Source: Pseudidiomarina aestuarii
GTDB taxonomy: Bacteria > Pseudomonadota > Gammaproteobacteria > Enterobacterales > Alteromonadaceae
DNA: 64,000 nt
Direction of reading: 5' to 3'
NCBI RefSeq assembly: GCF_003987355.1
Contig: NZ_PIPR01000001.1
Location: forward strand, 1,798,001-1,862,000
Positions 1-64,000 of this stretch are shown in pieces. How positions within the stretch are numbered: position 1 is the first letter of the stretch; each line of letters starts with the position of its first letter. Position numbers and translations under genes: made by a program. Below the pieces are notes generated by a model that searched no databases, had not been told where the DNA came from, and saw nothing but the letters and a program-made list of their open reading frames with translations.

Positions 1-3111
<3,111 letters not shown>

Positions 3112-8456: not shown

Positions 8457-9833
8457 ATGGACGACGCCTTTAGCAACAACGACACTATTGTTGCCCAAGC
8501 CACGCCTCCCGGGCGTGGTGGCGTCGGCATTGTTCGTGTTAGCGGCCCTGCGGCACGACAAGTAGCTGAACAACTCCTCGGACACTGTCCGCCGGCTCGC
8601 AAAGCTGAATACCTACCGTTTCGGAATTTAGATGGTGAGCTGCTTGATGAGGGTATCGCCCTCTTCTTCCAAGCTCCCAACTCGTTTACCGGTGAAGATG
8701 TCCTAGAGCTACAGGGCCATGGTGGGCCAGTACTCATCGACATGATCATCAAAGCTATTCTGGATTTCCCTGATATTCGTCCAGCGCGACCGGGAGAATT
8801 CAGCGAACGCGCCTTCCTCAATGACAAGCTTGATTTAACGCAAGCAGAGGCGATTGCTGACCTGATTGATACAACGTCAGAGCAAGCCGCAAAAGCGGCC
8901 TTACAGAGCTTGCAGGGTGGCTTCTCGTACGAAATTGATCAGCTCGTCGACGCAGTAATTCATCTACGGATGTATGTTGAAGCTGCCATCGACTTTCCCG
9001 ACGAAGAAGTCGACTTCCTAAGCGATGGCAAAGTAGCAAGCGATCTCGAAGCTATTATTGACCGCACCCATGAAGTAATGCGCCAAGCCAAGCAAGGTTC
9101 ATTGTTGCGGGAAGGTATGAAAGTCGTTATCGCGGGCAGACCCAATGCGGGGAAATCAAGTCTGCTAAACGCTTTGGCAGGTCGCGAATCGGCGATTGTT
9201 ACTGCTATTGCCGGCACCACGCGGGATGTCTTGCGGGAACATATTCAAATTGATGGCATGCCGCTGCATATTATTGATACTGCAGGACTTAGGGAAAGTC
9301 CCGATGAGGTTGAGCAAATTGGTATTCAGCGTGCCTGGGACGAAATTCGTCAAGCGGATCGCGTGCTGTTTATGGTCGACGCCACCGAAACAGAAGCCAT
9401 CCATCCAGCGGACATTTGGCCTGAGTTTTTTGAGCAACTCCCTGATGACCTGCCCTACACCGTTATCCGCAATAAAGTGGATTTAAACGCAGAACCCGTG
9501 GCACTGGAGGACATCAGTGGTATTCCCGTACTGCATTTGTCCGCTAAAACCGGCCACGGCATTGAACTGCTGCGCGAACATCTCAAGCATTGCGTTGGCT
9601 ACCAAGCCACCAGCGAAGGCAGCTTTATGGCGCGGCGGCGCCATCTTGATGCGCTGCAACGCGCCTTACAACACTTGTTGACCGGCCAAGAACATCTCGA
9701 GCTCTCTCTTGCCGGAGAATTGCTCGCTGAAGAGCTGCGGCTTACTCAGCAGCACCTCAACGAAATCACTGGCGAATTCACCTCCGACGACCTGCTCGGC
9801 AAAATCTTCAGCAGCTTCTGCATCGGCAAATAA
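8457..9833 (+). CDS. mnmE: tRNA modification GTPase MnmE
   Basis: MnmE works with MnmG to make the aminomethyl-type modification at the wobble uridine of certain tRNAs. The 458-residue product starts [20 protein letters not shown]. The G-domain P-loop GRPNAGKSS is near residue 223 and [16 protein letters not shown] follows. It ends with the catalytic C-terminal FCIGK. It is the last gene of the rpmH operon. Its stop is separated by 1 bp from the stop of a convergent gene, which marks the left edge of the inserted segment. Its partner mnmG lies at the other end of the window. Confidence 0.98.
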
Positions 9834-15349: not shown

Positions 15350-16054
15350 CTACAAATTGCGTACTCGTGATTGAATCCGCTTAATAGCTTGGCTGTGTAA
15401 TTGCGAAACGCGCGATTCCGTCACGTCGAGTACGGCACCAATTTCCTTCAAGTTGAGCTCTTCTTGGTAGTACAAAGTGATGACCAGTTGCTCTCGCTCT
15501 GGGAGAGTTTCGATGGCATTAATCAGTAATTGCTTCAGCTGAGCTTCGGTAACCTGCTCAGCGGGAGTATCCACGCCCTCTTCAGTCGTGGTTTCGCCGC
15601 CCGGAGCTTCTAGCACAACTTCGTCGTAGGACAGCACTAAGCCACTATTCGTATCTTGCAGCAACTGATGATAGTCCTCTATAGACATCTCAAGTTCAGC
15701 GGCTATTTCACGCTCTTCAGGGCTACGACCAAGTCGTTGCTCTAAACGACGCATTGCTTGTTCAAGTTCGCGCCCACTGCGGCGGACACTGCGTGGTATC
15801 CAATCGCGACTGCGCAGTTCATCAATCATTGCACCGCGCACGCGTTGATGAGCAAAGGTCGAAAACGCCACACCTGCTTCAGGATCAAACCGGTCGACAC
15901 AATTTAGCAGGCCTTCCAGACCGGCCTGAATTAAATCGTCGGTATCAACTCCAGCCGGCAATCTCACCTGTAACGCCAACGCTTGGCGGCGCACCATAGG
16001 GTAATATTGTTCAACAATGGTGTTGCGGTTTATTTTGCCTTGAGACGTATACAT
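15350..16054 (-). CDS. fliA: Flagellar sigma factor FliA (sigma-28)
   Basis: FliA directs RNA polymerase to late flagellar promoters and is held inactive by FlgM until hook completion. The 234-residue product has region 2 (YYPMVRRQALALQVRLP, DDLIQAGLEGLL), region 3 and a region 4 helix-turn-helix (LNLKEIGAVLDVTESRVSQ). The start ATG at 16054 has AAAGGA upstream. It is the last gene of flhB-flhA-flhF-flhG-like-fliA. At least seven TAAAGTTT-N11/12-GCCGATAA sites in the window are its likely targets. Confidence 0.96.
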   Translation of the reverse strand: MYTSQGKINRNTIVEQYYPMVRRQALALQVRLPAGVDTDDLIQAGLEGLLNCVDRFDPEAGVAFSTFAHQRVRGAMIDELRSRDWIPRSVRRSGRELEQAMRRLEQRLGRSPEEREIAAELEMSIEDYHQLLQDTNSGLVLSYDEVVLEAPGGETTTEEGVDTPAEQVTEAQLKQLLINAIETLPEREQLVITLYYQEELNLKEIGAVLDVTESRVSQLHSQAIKRIQSRVRNL

Positions 16055-16066
16055 ATCGTCCTTTGC

Positions 16067-16537
16067 CTACCCGTCCTGCGGTTCACGAATAATCAATAAT
16101 TCAATATCAAAATAGGTTTGCGCAATGTGTTGTACGTTGCTTAATAACCCTCTGCGAGACGCCATTGCAGGGTGCACTGCTAATACTCGTTGGTTGCGGA
16201 CACCCGCTGCAGAGAGTGCGCGCAATGCTTGATAAGCGCGATAAAAGCTATCAAGGTCAGTATCAATCCACAGCCCTAATCTAGGGTAACTTTGTACCAC
16301 TTTATCCAACTGAGGATAGTCAGTGGCTACTGGTATAATTCGCCACCGACTGGCATCGCCAACCCAACGTTTGCCCACTTGCTGCCAGCGTTCTAGCACG
16401 CCTTCAACTCGTTGCAGTTGTCCAGGTCCAAGCTGTGGTAAGCCAATCACGACAAGGTCTTCTGGCTCAGTCAGAAGCGCGGAACCGTCATCCCGCTCCT
16501 GTGCCCACTGTCGTAACCCTGCCGCTTGATCAGTCAT
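16067..16537 (-). CDS. Reduced FlhG-like protein lacking the ATPase P-loop
   Basis: The gene lies exactly where flhG (fleN) sits in polar systems, between flhF and fliA. Its start overlaps the flhF stop by 8 bp (ATGACTGA). The 156-residue product begins MTDQAAGLRQW, which matches the N-terminal DQAxxLR helix of FlhG that activates the FlhF GTPase. Normal FlhG then has a MinD-type ATPase with KGGVGKT. No such motif exists here, and the length is about half of normal. The C-terminal part (DSFYRAYQALRALSAAGV, then TYFDIELL) looks like a decayed copy of the MinD-fold second half. I infer an FlhF-regulating remnant without ATPase activity. Confidence 0.7.
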   Translation of the reverse strand: MTDQAAGLRQWAQERDDGSALLTEPEDLVVIGLPQLGPGQLQRVEGVLERWQQVGKRWVGDASRWRIIPVATDYPQLDKVVQSYPRLGLWIDTDLDSFYRAYQALRALSAAGVRNQRVLAVHPAMASRRGLLSNVQHIAQTYFDIELLIIREPQDG

Positions 16538-18635
16538 GTTGAGACCAACCCCTTGTTGATTCCGCTTGAATGCCTGCTGATACTTCACGCAATGCCTGAT
16601 GCGCAGATAATACTCGAATCATTCCACTCACTAGTTTACTGCCATCGACGCGACCCCGTTTACCACTTAAAGCAAGTAAATCGGCTCGCAATCGAGCCGC
16701 TTGGGGCTGCAACGAATACTCCAAATGGATGGCACTTGCAGCGATTGCCGCTGCTAACCACTGACGTAGCTCGCTTGGCGCTCCGTCGAGCTGTTGCCAC
16801 GCAAACCGCTGCAACCGGCCCAGCTCTTCTAGTTGTAAACTATACGTAGTCCGCGCGACCAAGTCATCCACACTGGCATTCGCGTCGAGAATCCAATAAC
16901 GGCGTTGTACGGCTGCTTTGCCCTTGCCACCCTGTAATTCACCGTAACACAGCTGCCACGGAGCGTCGCTAGCAACGCCATCAACCGCTGCAATTTTGAG
17001 CCTTAACGTCCGCGTTTCGCCTCGATAGACTAATTTTTCGGCGCCTTGCTGCAGTGGTACGCCATCGCGCTTAATAATTTCACTGGCAGATCTTACTTGT
17101 CCCTGCTGAGCCAAACGATGATTTACATTCACTGTAGCCAGCCAACCGCAACCGCGACTGGTTAAGGAGGACAACTCTGTCACATCCGGCAAATAATCAA
17201 ATAGTTGCAATTCCGCTGACTGAAACTCCGGTACGTCGCACCAGCTCGCACTCAACATCGGCAAACCACCTTGCGACAGTGCCACGGTAGCCGTGCGTTG
17301 CGACCAGCCTTGCAGTGGCTGTGGTGCAGCCCATCGAACCGCTGGCGGCGTGCGTTCGGTACGTGGTGGCGGCACTTGTCCGAGTTGGTATGCTTGGGTC
17401 ACTAAAGCAAAATCGGGGATCAGTTGCTGTAAACTGGCAAAAGCAAATTGCAAACTTTGTCCTTGGTCGACCAGCCGACTTGCATTGAACTGCTGCGGCA
17501 ACTCCAACTGCCATGCTTGTTGCTCTTGCGCACTGGCTTGAGTTGCATCGCCTAACGCGCAATTCAGCAAGCTCTCAATATGGGGCGGTTCGAAATCTTC
17601 TGGCACACGCTGGCCGCTGGAAATAGCTTGTACTTGAAACTGATGCCGACAAATCACGTCGAGGACACCACCGCTGTGCGTACACTCGTCCACTTTCGTA
17701 ATAATGCAGTCGTTAATTTGAAGGTCACTTTCTTGCGCTATGCGCCGGTATATTCGCGCTACTTCATCGAGCGTTGTCGGTTGCGCGGCAGCGTTGAGCA
17801 ATAGCACTAACTGAGAAGACTGCGATTGCTGTAACGCCGCTATTTTGCTTGGTAACCGCTGATCGCGCTGGCTCATACCGACTGTGTCCACCAAGATTAA
17901 TCGCTTGCCTTTCATCGGTTCAGCCAACGCTGAGAGCGAGTCACCGTCGCGCAGCGGATGCATGTCGACATTCAAAATATCTGCGTACACCTCTAACTGC
18001 TGCTGTGCACCGACACGATAACTATCTGTGGTGACCAATAGCAAACTATCGGCACCGTGGCGCATCACGTATTGAGCTGCCAACTTCGCCGTGGTCGTCG
18101 TTTTGCCTACACCGGTCGGACCTACTAACGCCACAACACCTGTAGCATCGAGAATAGGCCAATTCACCTCAGCCACGGCTATTCGCGCACTAATTTGTTC
18201 ACGAACCCAACGCTCGATATCAGCCTGACTAGCAGACGCTACATTCAATGAACCGGGCATATGCGACACAATCTGTCGCGATAACTCATGACTGAAACCA
18301 CCTATGCGCAAACGGCGATATAAACGGCTTTTCTGATCTTCTGCGAGTGCTTTGTCTTGAGTTCCTGCAGTTGTTGTTGAGCGTAATTCGGCTACTTCGG
18401 CTCGCAACGCCTGCATCTCAGTGAGTAGTTGCTGCGTGACCTTAGTAACATCCACAGAGGTAGCCGCGGTCTCAGGAGCGAGCTGATCTAAATCTGCCTC
18501 AAGAGCAGCGAGTACAAGCACTCCCTGACTATTCGGGCGCGTGCTGAGAATAACCGCATCGTCACCGAGCTTCTCGCGAACTTGCCGCATGGCTTCGCGC
18601 TGGTTGGCAGCGATAAACTTTTGCACCAAAGCCAT
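16530..18635 (-). CDS. flhF: FlhF, SRP-type flagellar GTPase, with long C-terminal extension
   Basis: FlhF is an SRP54/FtsY-like GTPase that positions flagella. The N-terminus MALVQKFIAANQREAMRQVR is typical. The NG domain has an intact P-loop GPTGVGKTTTTAKLAA (residues about 172-187), DTVGM near 250 and TKVDE near 314, and ends near 361. The family has roughly 390-500 residues; this protein has 701. The extra 340 or so residues match nothing I recognise and have no membrane segment. The start overlaps the flhA stop by 1 bp. Peritrichous FlhDC systems normally lack FlhF, so its presence is unusual. Confidence 0.9.
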   Translation of the reverse strand: MALVQKFIAANQREAMRQVREKLGDDAVILSTRPNSQGVLVLAALEADLDQLAPETAATSVDVTKVTQQLLTEMQALRAEVAELRSTTTAGTQDKALAEDQKSRLYRRLRIGGFSHELSRQIVSHMPGSLNVASASQADIERWVREQISARIAVAEVNWPILDATGVVALVGPTGVGKTTTTAKLAAQYVMRHGADSLLLVTTDSYRVGAQQQLEVYADILNVDMHPLRDGDSLSALAEPMKGKRLILVDTVGMSQRDQRLPSKIAALQQSQSSQLVLLLNAAAQPTTLDEVARIYRRIAQESDLQINDCIITKVDECTHSGGVLDVICRHQFQVQAISSGQRVPEDFEPPHIESLLNCALGDATQASAQEQQAWQLELPQQFNASRLVDQGQSLQFAFASLQQLIPDFALVTQAYQLGQVPPPRTERTPPAVRWAAPQPLQGWSQRTATVALSQGGLPMLSASWCDVPEFQSAELQLFDYLPDVTELSSLTSRGCGWLATVNVNHRLAQQGQVRSASEIIKRDGVPLQQGAEKLVYRGETRTLRLKIAAVDGVASDAPWQLCYGELQGGKGKAAVQRRYWILDANASVDDLVARTTYSLQLEELGRLQRFAWQQLDGAPSELRQWLAAAIAASAIHLEYSLQPQAARLRADLLALSGKRGRVDGSKLVSGMIRVLSAHQALREVSAGIQAESTRGWSQHD

Positions 18636-23794: not shown

Positions 23795-23821
23795 ATATCG
23801 GCGTGCTAGCGAGAAACTTGA
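23795..23821 (-). promoter_or_regulatory. Sigma-28 promoter of motAB
   Basis: On the minus strand: TCAAGTTT, 11 bp, GCCGATAT. This is one mismatch per element from the TAAAGTTT/GCCGATAA consensus. The -35 element lies in the last codons of flhC. Confidence 0.7.
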
Positions 23822-24372
23822 GCTTCTTTTACAGATTTTTCGCAGTCTTTGATAAGCGGCTTGCCTGCTCGAGAGGGCGGTTGGCAGACACCACAGACGT
23901 AATCGCTATCCGGCGTATGCGCATGATTTACAAAGTTGAGCTTACAACTGGTACAAGTGGACAGTTGAAACATGTCGCTTTCAAAAAAGCGAACCAATGT
24001 CCACGCGCGAGTCAGTGCTAGAACTTCTTCACTACCCGTGCCACGCAAGTGTTCTTGGTACATGCGATAGGCCTTAATAAAGGCTTGCATGCGCTCTAAC
24101 CCTTGCTGATTGTGGAAGCGATCATAAATCGTATAGAAAAACGATGCGTGTATATTCGGCATCCAGGTTAAGAACCAATCCGTAGAAAACGGCAACATTC
24201 CTTTGGGTGGTGATTTTCCAGCAACTTCTTTATACAACCTGACCAAACGGCCACGGTTTAATGCAACTTCAGATTCGAGAACTTGTAAACGAGCACCCAG
24301 TTCAATTAGCTCGATAGCTAATTGGACTTGGTTCAATTCGTCCAGAAGTTTGGTGGAAGATTGACTTGTCAT
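23806..24372 (-). CDS. flhC: Flagellar master regulator FlhC
   Basis: FlhC combines with FlhD into the FlhD4C2 activator of class II flagellar promoters. The 188-residue product matches the usual 190 or so. It has the zinc-binding cysteines C-x2-C near residue 139 (STCTSCKLNF) and C-x2-C near residue 159 (YVCGVCQ). It starts 2 bp after the flhD stop. Its 3' end overlaps the motAB promoter. Confidence 0.96.
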   Translation of the reverse strand: MTSQSSTKLLDELNQVQLAIELIELGARLQVLESEVALNRGRLVRLYKEVAGKSPPKGMLPFSTDWFLTWMPNIHASFFYTIYDRFHNQQGLERMQAFIKAYRMYQEHLRGTGSEEVLALTRAWTLVRFFESDMFQLSTCTSCKLNFVNHAHTPDSDYVCGVCQPPSRAGKPLIKDCEKSVKEAQVSR

Positions 24373-24374
24373 TA

Positions 24375-24674
24375 CTACGCCGTTGCCATCAACATTGCCA
24401 AATGGGTTTCCTGTAAACCAGTGTCACGTTTATTCTCAAATACAGCACGTAATTGCTGGGCTGAAGCTAACTGAGGTCGCAATACGCTCTGTTGCTGGCG
24501 AGCCAATAATGTCATCTCACGAACGGTAAGATTAGCAAGCAGATCCGCCAGATCAGCATCAATTTTGAGTCGGAAAATCGCGGTCTCACGATCTTCTAAG
24601 ATCAGTTTTTGCACTAATAGCAAGTAGCTCAGATTCAGATCTTGGAGTTCTTCTAGGGTTCTACTCTGAGACAT
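24375..24674 (-). CDS. flhD: Flagellar master regulator FlhD
   Basis: FlhD is the partner of FlhC in the master activator. The 99-residue product (LQDLNLSYLLLVQKLILEDR, then AIFRLKI) is typical, slightly shorter than the E. coli form. It opens the flhD-flhC-motA-motB run, the same order as in E. coli. A sigma-70-like promoter lies 34-61 bp upstream. Confidence 0.95.
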   Translation of the reverse strand: MSQSRTLEELQDLNLSYLLLVQKLILEDRETAIFRLKIDADLADLLANLTVREMTLLARQQQSVLRPQLASAQQLRAVFENKRDTGLQETHLAMLMATA

Positions 24675-30008: not shown

Positions 30009-30066
30009 CAGCAGGTGACGGCAGGCCATTATGGCGGCCCTCTTTTCGAAACAAAAGGAAACGACT

Positions 30067-30864
30067 ATGTCAGTCATCAATACCAACATTACCTCGCTGA
30101 TTGGTCAGCAGAATCTGCAGAAGTCGCAGTCATCGCTGCAAACTTCGATGGAGCGTCTGTCTTCAGGCCTGCGTATTAATAGCGCCAAAGACGATGCTGC
30201 TGGTCAAGCCATCGCCAACAAAATGACCGCTCAAATCCGTGGTCTCTCGCAAGCACAACGAAATGCCAACGATGGTATTTCATTAGCACAAACCGCTGAA
30301 GGCTCTTTGAACCAAATCAACGACAACCTGCAGCGTATTCGTGAGTTGACTGTGCAAGCTCAAAACGGCACCAACTCAGCAGACGACGTTGCGTCGATTC
30401 AAGCTGAAGTCGATGAGCGTTTAGCAGAAATTACTCGGGTTGTTGGCGAATCAGAATTTAACGGCAACGCACTGTTCGACCCAGCCGCTGATTTCAATAT
30501 TCAAGTCGGTGCAAAAGATGGTCAGGTCATTACTATTGCTGCGGCGACTCTCGCCTCAACTGCGTTTGATCTCGGTACGTTTGACGTCGCCACTGGCACC
30601 TTGGCTTCACTTGATACCGCCATCGGCTCAGTGGATAGCACGCGCTCAAATTTAGGTGCGGTGCAAAACCGTCTTGAGTCTGCTATCGACAACATCAGCA
30701 CCACGGTCGCTAACTTGTCAGCTGCGCGTTCACGTATTGAAGATGCCGATTACGCGGTTGAAGTCAGCAACATGACGCGCTCACAGATTTTGCAACAAGC
30801 AGGTACTTCGGTATTAGCGCAAGCTAACCAGGTTCCACAGGGCGTATTATCACTGTTGGGTTAA
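30067..30864 (+). CDS. fliC1: Flagellin 1
   Basis: Filament subunit of 265 residues. The N-terminus [20 protein letters not shown] and the C-terminus [17 protein letters not shown] are the conserved D0/D1 helices. The central domain is very short, giving a compact flagellin. The start is the ATG at 30067, with AAAGGAAACGACT upstream; the longer frame adds non-family residues. The protein is identical to that of fliC3, though the DNA differs at scattered synonymous sites. It has its own sigma-28 promoter. Confidence 0.97.
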
Positions 30865-30877
30865 TCCCAACAGTGAT
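30849..30877 (+). terminator. Hairpin over the fliC1 stop codon
   Basis: ATCACTGTTGGG and CCCAACAGTGAT form a perfect 12-bp stem with a 5-base loop (TTAAT) containing the stop codon. The following T-run is weak (CTTCTTTT), so it may attenuate read-through into fliC2 or protect the mRNA end rather than end transcription. Confidence 0.65.
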
Positions 30878-30905
30878 GCGCTTCTTTTACTAAGAGGACA
30901 TTACT

Positions 30906-31703
30906 ATGTCAGTTATTAATACCAACATCACTTCGTTGATTGGTCAGCAGAACCTGCAGAAATCGCAGTCAGCTCTGCAGACTTCTATGGAGCGCTTGTC
31001 ATCAGGTTTGCGCATTAACAGTGCCAAAGATGATGCAGCGGGCCAAGCCATCGCGAACAAGATGACGTCACAAATTCGTGGCTTAACTCAAGCGCAGCGT
31101 AATGCCAACGACGGTATTTCACTCGCTCAAACGGCTGAAGGTTCATTGAACCAAATCAACGATAACTTACAACGTATTCGTGAGTTAGCGGTTCAGGCTG
31201 AAAACGGTACGAACTCGGTAGACGACGTTGCATCGATTCAAGCAGAAGTTGATGAGCGTTTAGCTGAAATTTCGCGCGTTGTGACTGAGTCTGAGTTCAA
31301 TGGTAATGCGCTATTTACTAACGGCGCGGCCACTACATTCACAATCCAAGTAGGTGCAAAAGATGCACAAACGATTGATGTTGTAGTCGGTGACTCAGCA
31401 GGCTATGACCTTGGCGCATTTGCTGTGGGTACCGATACCCTAGCAACGCTGGACACAGCTATCGCAGCGGTAGATAGCACGCGCTCAAACCTGGGTGCGA
31501 TTCAAAACCGGATGGAATCAGCGATTGACAACATCAGCACCACAGTAGCTAACTTGTCTGCTGCGCGCTCACGTATCGAAGATGCTGACTACGCTGTAGA
31601 AGTCAGCAACATGACTCGTTCACAGATCTTGCAACAGGCGGGTACCTCAGTATTAGCTCAGGCTAACCAGGTACCACAGGGCGTATTGTCACTATTGGGT
31701 TAA
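30906..31703 (+). CDS. fliC2: Flagellin 2
   Basis: This second flagellin also has 265 residues. Its D0/D1 ends are almost identical to those of fliC1/fliC3, but the central stretch differs (LFTNGAATTFTIQVGAKDAQ, then a Val/Asp-rich loop). It begins 41 bp after fliC1 with AGAGG upstream. I see no sigma-28 promoter of its own, so it probably depends on read-through past the fliC1 hairpin. A strong terminator follows. Confidence 0.97.
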   Translation: MSVINTNITSLIGQQNLQKSQSALQTSMERLSSGLRINSAKDDAAGQAIANKMTSQIRGLTQAQRNANDGISLAQTAEGSLNQINDNLQRIRELAVQAENGTNSVDDVASIQAEVDERLAEISRVVTESEFNGNALFTNGAATTFTIQVGAKDAQTIDVVVGDSAGYDLGAFAVGTDTLATLDTAIAAVDSTRSNLGAIQNRMESAIDNISTTVANLSAARSRIEDADYAVEVSNMTRSQILQQAGTSVLAQANQVPQGVLSLLG

Positions 31704-31733
31704 TTCCAATCATTTGATATTCGACCTTCATCA

Positions 31734-31767
31734 TCAGCCATCCACTCGTGGGTGGCTGATTTTTTTC
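31734..31767 (+). terminator. Rho-independent terminator after fliC2
   Basis: TCAGCCATCCAC and GTGGGTGGCTGA pair (one G-T wobble) and are followed by seven T. It separates fliC2 from the fliC3 promoter. Confidence 0.85.
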
Positions 31768-31784
31768 TTTTTCAAAAAATATTC

Positions 31785-31811
31785 TAAAGTTGTCTGAAAG
31801 CGTGCCGATAA
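31785..31811 (+). promoter_or_regulatory. Sigma-28 promoter of fliC3
   Basis: TAAAGTTG, 11 bp, GCCGATAA: a perfect -10 element, 42 bp before the fliC3 start. It is a better match than the fliC1 promoter. Confidence 0.85.
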
Positions 31812-31853
31812 TCATTGTTAACAACAGAACAATGGTTCAAGAGGAACGTAACT

Positions 31854-32651
31854 ATGTCAGTCATCAATACCAACATTACCTCGCTGATTGGTCAGCAGAA
31901 TCTGCAGAAGTCGCAGTCATCGCTGCAAACTTCGATGGAGCGTCTGTCTTCAGGCCTGCGTATTAATAGCGCCAAAGACGATGCTGCTGGTCAAGCCATC
32001 GCCAACAAAATGACCGCCCAAATCCGTGGTCTCTCGCAAGCTCAACGAAATGCCAACGATGGTATTTCACTAGCACAAACCGCTGAAGGTTCTTTGAACC
32101 AAATCAACGACAACTTGCAGCGTATTCGTGAGTTGACTGTGCAAGCTCAAAACGGCACCAACTCAGCAGACGACGTTGCGTCGATTCAGGCTGAAGTCGA
32201 TGAGCGTTTAGCAGAAATTACTCGAGTTGTTGGCGAATCAGAATTTAACGGCAACGCACTGTTCGACCCAGCCGCTGATTTCAATATTCAAGTGGGCGCA
32301 AAAGATGGTCAGGTCATTACTATTGCTGCGGCGACTCTCGCCTCAACTGCGTTTGACCTCGGTACGTTTGACGTTGCCACTGGCACCTTAGCTTCACTTG
32401 ATACCGCCATCGGCTCAGTGGATAGCACGCGCTCAAATTTAGGTGCGGTGCAAAACCGTCTTGAATCTGCTATCGACAACATCAGCACCACGGTCGCTAA
32501 CTTGTCCGCTGCGCGTTCACGTATTGAAGATGCCGATTACGCGGTTGAAGTCAGCAACATGACGCGCTCACAGATTTTGCAACAGGCGGGTACTTCAGTA
32601 TTGGCTCAGGCGAACCAGGTTCCGCAGGGCGTGCTGTCACTGTTGGGATAA
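31854..32651 (+). CDS. fliC3: Flagellin 3 (protein identical to flagellin 1)
   Basis: The 265-residue protein is identical to that of fliC1 as far as I can read, while the DNA differs at a few synonymous sites. This points to recent duplication or gene conversion across fliC2. The start is the ATG at 31854 with AGAGG upstream. It has its own sigma-28 promoter and a strong terminator, so it is a separate transcription unit. Confidence 0.97.
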
Positions 32652-63146: not shown

Positions 63147-64000
63147 ATGAGTAACCAGCACAACTTTCACCAACACTATGACGTCATTGTCATTGGCGGT
63201 GGTCATGCAGGAACTGAAGCCGCATTGGCTGCAGCTCGCATGGGTTGTCAAACATTGCTGCTCACGCACAACATCGAAACATTAGGACAAATGTCCTGCA
63301 ATCCAGCTATTGGTGGCATTGGTAAAGGTCATTTAGTCAAAGAGATCGATGCGTTAGGCGGTGCAATGGCAATTGCAGCCGATCGCGCTGGTATTCAATT
63401 TCGGACGCTCAATTCTTCCAAAGGTCCGGCAGTACGTGCTACGCGGGCTCAGGCTGATCGAGTTCTGTATCGAGCAGCTATTCGTGAACAACTCGAGAAC
63501 CACGAAAACTTAAGTTTGTTTCAACAAGCCTGTGATGATCTCGTTGTAGAAAACGATCGTGTAATCGGTGTCGTTACACAAATGGGATTAAAGTTTTCAG
63601 CAAAAACAGTTGTTTTAACCGTAGGTACTTTCCTTGGTGGTCAAATACATATTGGTCTCGACAATTATCAAGGTGGTCGAGCTGGTGACCCACCAGCGAA
63701 TGCTTTAGCCAAACGTCTGCGTGAGTTACCACTGCGTGTTGATCGACTCAAAACAGGTACACCACCACGGGTCGATGCAAAGACGATCGATTTCTCAGTC
63801 ATGCAAGAGCAACCGGGTGATTCTCCAACACCTGTATTTTCGTTTATGGGTGATGGCTCCGATCATCCACAACAAATTTCGTGTTACATCACGCATACCA
63901 ACGAAAAAACCCACGACATTATCAAAGGTGGATTAGACCGTTCACCGATGTATTCTGGCGTGATCGAAGGTATTGGTCCGCGTTATTGTCCGTCAATTGA
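63147..64000 (+). CDS. mnmG: tRNA modification enzyme MnmG, 5' part
   Basis: MnmG (GidA) is the FAD-dependent partner of MnmE in wobble-uridine modification. About 285 codons lie in the window, of roughly 630 expected. The N-terminus [20 protein letters not shown] carries the FAD-binding GxGxxG-like motif (GGGHAG). [15 protein letters not shown] and [13 protein letters not shown] are family signatures. It reads away from oriC and is cut by the right edge. Confidence 0.97.

Follow-up and report, generated by a model that had tools for sequence, protein, structure and literature searches.

How much of FlhG can be lost while its gene is still kept beside flhF? This question is raised by a short open reading frame (ORF), here called mini-FlhG, in a 64,000-nucleotide stretch of the Pseudidiomarina aestuarii genome (contig NZ_PIPR01000001.1, positions 1,798,001 to 1,862,000; hereafter the window). 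FlhG is credited with two roles, restricting the number of flagella as an ATPase and activating FlhF, and evolution seems to have split the two here. The ORF has an ATG start and encodes a protein of 156 residues beginning MTDQAAGLRQWA..., with DQAAGLRQW at residues 3-11 (coordinates in Table 1 include the stop codon). It lies between flhF and fliA and overlaps flhF by 8 nt (16530-16537), and no Walker A P-loop (KGGVGKT) was found in the 156-residue protein. These features, on which a preliminary description had based its proposal of a reduced FlhG with the helix kept and the ATPase site lost, were all borne out, and the proposal itself gained support: sequence comparisons point to mini-FlhG being an FlhG derivative that retains the helix and lacks the P-loop.

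Support for this descent comes from the part of the protein behind the helix. With the helix removed, the core matched Burkholderiales FlhG in profile–profile comparison at an E-value of 8e-10, none of 150 column shuffles scoring as high, and canonical FlhG at a score of 30.3 versus a shuffle maximum of 21.7 (150 shuffles). The latter comparison became strong once the core set was enlarged and Burkholderiales FlhG was used as a bridge. The first about 80 and the last about 70 of the 288 FlhG profile columns have no counterpart in mini-FlhG, which ends at about column 214; by alignment only, the C-terminal membrane-targeting sequence is missing. hhalign found no match of the core to MinD/Soj-type sequences (probability 0.1%, 19 sequences) or to FliA. 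In the AlphaFold model, residues 24-152 have a pLDDT mostly over 90.

Homologues were present in the flhF-fliA gap of related genomes, where the preliminary description had suggested looking: 14 of the 25 other genomes of the genus carry one, and so do many of a Halomonadaceae-like family. The 14 carriers are exactly those genus members with an FlhF open frame of 678-725 aa. Another member, G020, has an FlhF of 456 aa with a canonical FlhG (L028) behind it, and in the other ten no FlhF passed the cut-off, three of these genomes being less than 90% complete. An alignment-based scan of named genomes returned 23 loci with the family, whose members occur in Pseudidiomarina, Idiomarina loihiensis SN11, Aliidiomarina, Litchfieldella, Onishia, Halomonas salinarum and Chromohalobacter. 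Many of the carriers are thus salt-loving bacteria. A contig scan with the single mini-FlhG protein as query found nothing. In the comparison that gave the 14 homologues of the genus, one further match (G030, locus L024, E 0.006) was dropped as noise, having four stops inside.

In a family of 151 genomes taken to be Halomonadaceae (f177), FlhF was found in 125. The mini-FlhG profile A2 matched 84 of these (E <=0.01; three only at 1e-5 or weaker), in 13 of the 24 genera. The remaining 41 FlhF-bearing genomes, including G297 (L084), were read individually. Twenty-three with a long FlhF have a helix-bearing ORF missed by A2, three with a long FlhF lack mini-FlhG, one has a broken FlhF frame, and 14 with a short FlhF (424-477 aa; L173-L186) have neither a mini-FlhG-type ORF nor a KGG ORF beside flhF. 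Long FlhF and mini-FlhG therefore co-occur in both the genus and the Halomonadaceae-like genomes; in the short-FlhF genomes of the latter, FliA, where marked, begins at the end of flhF. Six of the 14 short-FlhF genomes, compared with the FlhG profile, gave no match better than about 1e-23 to 1e-25, which is the level of MinD. A DQAxxLR-like ORF after fliA in six short-FlhF genomes was read as CheZ, not FlhG.

The preliminary description knew of no such family, and none was found in the libraries and the literature searched. The window protein had no match in Pfam or NCBIfam up to E 1, the matches of 24 aligned homologues were sporadic and fell in unrelated families, most of them repetitive, and no relative was found in PHROGs or, by hmmsearch with A2, among the PDB sequences. 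Literature on FlhG/FlhF reduction, DQAxxLR, Halomonas, Idiomarina and betaproteobacteria contained no description of mini-FlhG in titles or abstract starts, most subscription journals lying outside its scope.

Mini-FlhG is under purifying selection: dN/dS was 0.034-0.268 in nine close homologue pairs, and 25 columns are invariant across 15 sequences. These values and the homologues in the same gap confirm that the ORF is a real gene, beyond chance. When the nearest upstream start codon is assumed, the distance between the flhF stop and the mini-FlhG start is -45 to +8 nt in all 65 loci measured. DQAxxLR is intact in 95/95 loci read (some being one genome in two collections), followed in 85 by a W two residues after the R; the search pattern required Q and A and allowed N/E, M and K at the other three of the five places, leaving D, L and R as the informative letters. 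Among the 84 A2-positive genomes, 49 were read (30 loci and 20 fetched, one genome in both) and all 49 have the helix. Without near-copies the set comprises 77 sequences, window included. Length from the D of the motif ranges from 129 to 292 residues, and GK[TS] occurs in 5/95 loci, solely within linker stretches and not as P-loops. By analogy with FlhG, Q4 of the window protein is expected to be the co-catalytic glutamine. Selection and the intact helix make it very unlikely that mini-FlhG is a decaying flhG with no function left and only briefly retained, even though its cores diverge strongly, one long-FlhF genus has lost it and the 14 short-FlhF Halomonadaceae-like genomes have no such ORF or KGG ORF beside flhF.

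Several results weigh against reading mini-FlhG as an FlhG derivative that activates FlhF. The core matched a Nitrosomonas-like FlhG set weakly (P 0.008), as it did canonical FlhG in the first comparison (P 0.014 and 0.006). The model's helix, residues 5-16, has a low pLDDT of about 50. In VIA-align, FlhG 4RZ3 came first (mini-FlhG 24..152 on 4RZ3 21..225), tied with unrelated alpha/beta folds, and in Foldseek it was only 19th, behind flavodoxins. DQAxxLR-like stretches also arise by chance, for example in a CheZ-like protein. Finally, the three long-FlhF genomes without mini-FlhG, all of one genus (L187-L189), indicate that long FlhF can do without it. The preliminary description had named a fold unrelated to MinD/FlhG as evidence against its reading; the predicted fold does not contradict that reading, and the tie and the low Foldseek rank make this a weak test. 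These ties and the empty library searches are what could be said for an unrelated protein whose DQAxxLR helix arose by convergence. The core-only homology to FlhG and a gene position that is that of flhG speak against it, and we regard convergence as the least credible explanation.

A full-length flhG with its own DQAxxLR helix elsewhere would have told against a reduced form, and none was found in the window genome (2.64 Mb, 99.5% complete). Eight ParA/MinD-type (AAA_31) matches were found there, none of the eight loci having a DQAxxLR-like helix or ORF; the four that were opened presumably encode a polysaccharide kinase, ArsA, a BcsQ-like protein and Ffh. Profile A3, built from 44 FlhG (43 of gamma-proteobacterial polar type and L083), gave one match in each of the window genome and its 14 carrier relatives, at 6.5e-15 to 3.4e-13, and revealed no full-length FlhG; in G020, where FlhF is short, FlhG was matched at 5.6e-148. 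In 17 of 18 genomes of the genus compared with the FlhG profile there was only one match, near 1e-14, besides the FlhG of G020. The genus may also lack MinD, as judged from the lack of any match as strong as those of the Halomonadaceae-like genomes (1e-23).

Is the loss of the ATPase site peculiar to these short proteins? Among 342 genomes sampled from the class, FlhF (NF011312, E 1e-50) was found in 176 and FlhG (E 1e-45) in 172 of these. The other four are the window genome, G297 and G373, which have mini forms, and G149, whose FlhG has 250 residues, DQAAGLR and no P-loop. The order of G149 was taken to be Burkholderiales because two FlhF stretches from this order match Cupriavidus and Burkholderia best. 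We read the loci (among them L256-L315 and L253) of 62 of the 97 FlhF-bearing Burkholderiales genomes (60 plus G149 and G255) and counted 51. In these 51 aligned FlhG the helix letters occur in 51, [VIAT]GK[TS] in nine and KGG in none; the P-loop Lys is present in 44/44 FlhG of A3. Eleven rows were left out: in L291 and L295 the helix was recognised on re-inspection, L254, L283, L284 and L294 have an altered one, L278 and L279 showed no FlhG ORF, and L281, L282 and L289 were left undecided. Because of the four altered rows, the helix is not invariant in the order. The proteins of Cupriavidus metallidurans CH34 (L316) and Burkholderia glumae BGR1 (L317), the latter annotated as FlhG, carry DQAxxLRRL, and their first 60 residues contain no GK[TS]. 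Since Burkholderiales FlhG mostly lack GK[TS], loss of the ATPase site with retention of the helix looks common, with mini-FlhG as its extreme form, and an annotated FlhG should not always be taken for an ATPase.

How, then, might mini-FlhG act? According to PMC12826062, the glutamine of the DQAxxLR helix stimulates FlhF and replaces the catalytic cytidine of the signal recognition particle (SRP) RNA, the FlhF dimer passing to the monomer, while FlhG dimerises on ATP and binds membranes via its C-terminal sequence. As mini-FlhG keeps the helix and lacks the sequences for ATP-dependent dimerisation and membrane binding, we infer an activator that is not gated by ATP, and consider it probable that it works on FlhF by docking of the helix. 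In this reading the nucleotide-binding half of the MinD-like domain and the membrane-targeting end are gone, and a small alpha/beta remnant trails behind a flexible linker. Made beside FlhF, the protein would dock its helix on the FlhF dimer, promote GTP hydrolysis and so reset FlhF. Its activity would escape the FlhG ATP cycle and depend on its amount and on contacts of the core, perhaps with the C-terminal domain of FlhF that co-occurs with it. Alternatively, the helix could be a docking peptide only, which either brings the core to the C-ring, a pole factor or the FlhF C-terminal domain or holds FlhF, hydrolysis not being the point. Selection still acts on the core in Idiomarina and in some of the Halomonadaceae, and binding of FlhG to C-ring proteins has been reported (PMC12826062). 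However, conservation is much lower in the core than in the helix, A2 missing the 23 long-FlhF genomes whose ORF keeps the helix, and we consider docking alone unlikely.

The C-terminal extension of the window FlhF is predicted to have a fold resembling Tn5 transposase, for which no sequence-level support was found; an FlhG domain hidden in the extension was rejected, there being no profile match. Control by FlhDC had also been proposed, and an FlhDC-type system is indeed present, with flhC in the window. In a survey of 80 chosen genomes, FlhC was found in 3/3 Idiomarina-group carriers and not in G020 or G003, in 14/14 long-FlhF and 0/6 short-FlhF Halomonadaceae-like genomes, in 2/2 Nitrosomonas-like and in 16/28 Burkholderiales genomes; 25 polar genomes with canonical FlhG gave no strong match and one weak one (G397, 8e-16). 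FlhDC as an explanation of P-loop loss was rejected: GK[TS] occurs in 4/16 FlhC-positive vs 5/12 FlhC-negative Burkholderiales (Fisher p 0.43), in a set that was not random, all nine GK[TS] genomes having been included on purpose. FlhDC thus tracks ATPase loss within Idiomarina and Halomonadaceae, not within Burkholderiales.

An FlhF tree (176 rows, quick method, deeper branches weak) placed polar-type and short Halomonadaceae FlhF together (53 rows, node value 100), with G020 beside the polar type, and grouped the long FlhF of Idiomarina, Aliidiomarina and Halomonadaceae apart (64 rows, node value 95). This separate clade, and FlhC in 17/17 long-FlhF genomes, in 0/6 short-FlhF ones and not in G020, fit a transferred FlhDC-type flagellar system that replaced the polar one, with no donor or direction assigned. 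G680 (L277), of the order Burkholderiales, combines a full-length FlhG lacking GK[TS] with an FlhF that shares this C-terminal extension of the long type (E 1.2e-17), as expected of an intermediate. The three long-FlhF genomes without mini-FlhG have altered FlhF G2, G3 and G4 motifs (G3 being GVGQRD vs GMSQRD in 65/65 others) on a long branch (1.86); the G3 change together with the absence of mini-FlhG fits co-evolution of helix and GTPase, in a single lineage.

The preliminary description had further suggested a change from one polar flagellum to several. Species descriptions lend this no support and do not point to a simple gain: for Pseudidiomarina piscicola, a carrier (L075), the abstract gives polar flagella but the description a single-form "polar flagellum" (PMC8055624), Pseudidiomarina are described as single polar, peritrichous or non-motile (PMC6193092), and Idiomarina as having a polar flagellum (PMC6336423). 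Multiple polar flagella are given for P. xizangensis (PMC12893665), whose genome is outside this comparison. A split of the two roles of FlhG would allow a direct test of which part governs the number of flagella and which their placement.

According to PMC12826062, it is open whether FlhF/FlhG engage master regulators beyond FlrA/FleQ, and the flagellar operon that enterobacteria acquired was beta-proteobacterial, flhF and flhG either not having come with it or having disappeared soon afterwards. FlhDC systems that carry a mini-FlhG look like intermediate stages in a loss of this kind. A wider reading, for which we see nearly as much reason as against it, is that an ATPase-free FlhF-FlhG switch is common and that FlhG was reduced stepwise in beta-proteobacterial-type systems, by loss of the P-loop, truncation to helix and remnant, and finally loss, as ATP-gated outputs no longer mattered and the helix was still needed. 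The FlhF of Idiomarina and Halomonadaceae would have gained a domesticated, catalytically dead transposase-fold domain, maybe taking over part of the lost regulation.

The genes around the ORF run in the order flhD-flhC-motA-motB-flhB-flhA-flhF-ORF-fliA, names being read from the ORFs and, for flhF and flhC, also assigned by profile. Three flagellin-like genes with nearly identical N-termini stand in tandem at 30031-32651 (+). The flagellar cluster is flanked by genes that we take to be mnmE- and mnmG-like (8457-9833 and 63147-64000), presumably with dnaN-recF-gyrB and soj nearby, the usual surroundings of a replication origin. Its position between the mnmE- and mnmG-like genes is as for an inserted island.

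Table 1. Features of the mini-FlhG locus, in window positions
Feature	Coordinates	Strand	Basis
mini-FlhG, 156 aa	16067..16537	-	ORF, same-gap homologues, core homology to FlhG, dN/dS
Putative enhancer helix of mini-FlhG, residues 3-16 (DQAAGLRQW...)	16490..16531	-	motif in 95/95 loci; model helix 5-16
Remnant alpha/beta core of mini-FlhG, residues 24-152	16082..16468	-	hhalign to FlhG; AlphaFold model; VIA-align
flhF, 701 aa, long type, expected partner of mini-FlhG	16530..18635	-	TIGR03499, E 6.9e-63; long FlhF accompanies mini-FlhG
C-terminal extension of FlhF, residues 366-701, predicted Tn5-transposase-like fold	16533..17540	-	
fliA	15350..16054	-	ORF and position; name read from sequence
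flhC	23806..24372	-	PF05280, E 1e-75
flhD	24375..24674	-	position and reading of ORF
flhC and flhD, master regulator genes	23806..24674	-	

Among known systems, mini-FlhG is closest to FlhG itself (FleN, YlxH; 4RZ2/4RZ3, 5J1J/5JVF). Both have the DQAxxLR N-terminal helix and a gene directly downstream of flhF, and the mini-FlhG core is homologous to the second half of FlhG, but the mini form lacks the P-loop and has half the length. Burkholderiales FlhG without GK[TS] (L256, L316, L317) likewise keep the helix with a degraded ATP site, yet still have 240-300 residues, whereas mini-FlhG is truncated. The SRP RNA, which stimulates Ffh-FtsY, offers a functional parallel: it is RNA, not protein, and shares no homology with mini-FlhG, but like the activator proposed here it stimulates an SRP-type GTPase pair with no NTPase of its own.
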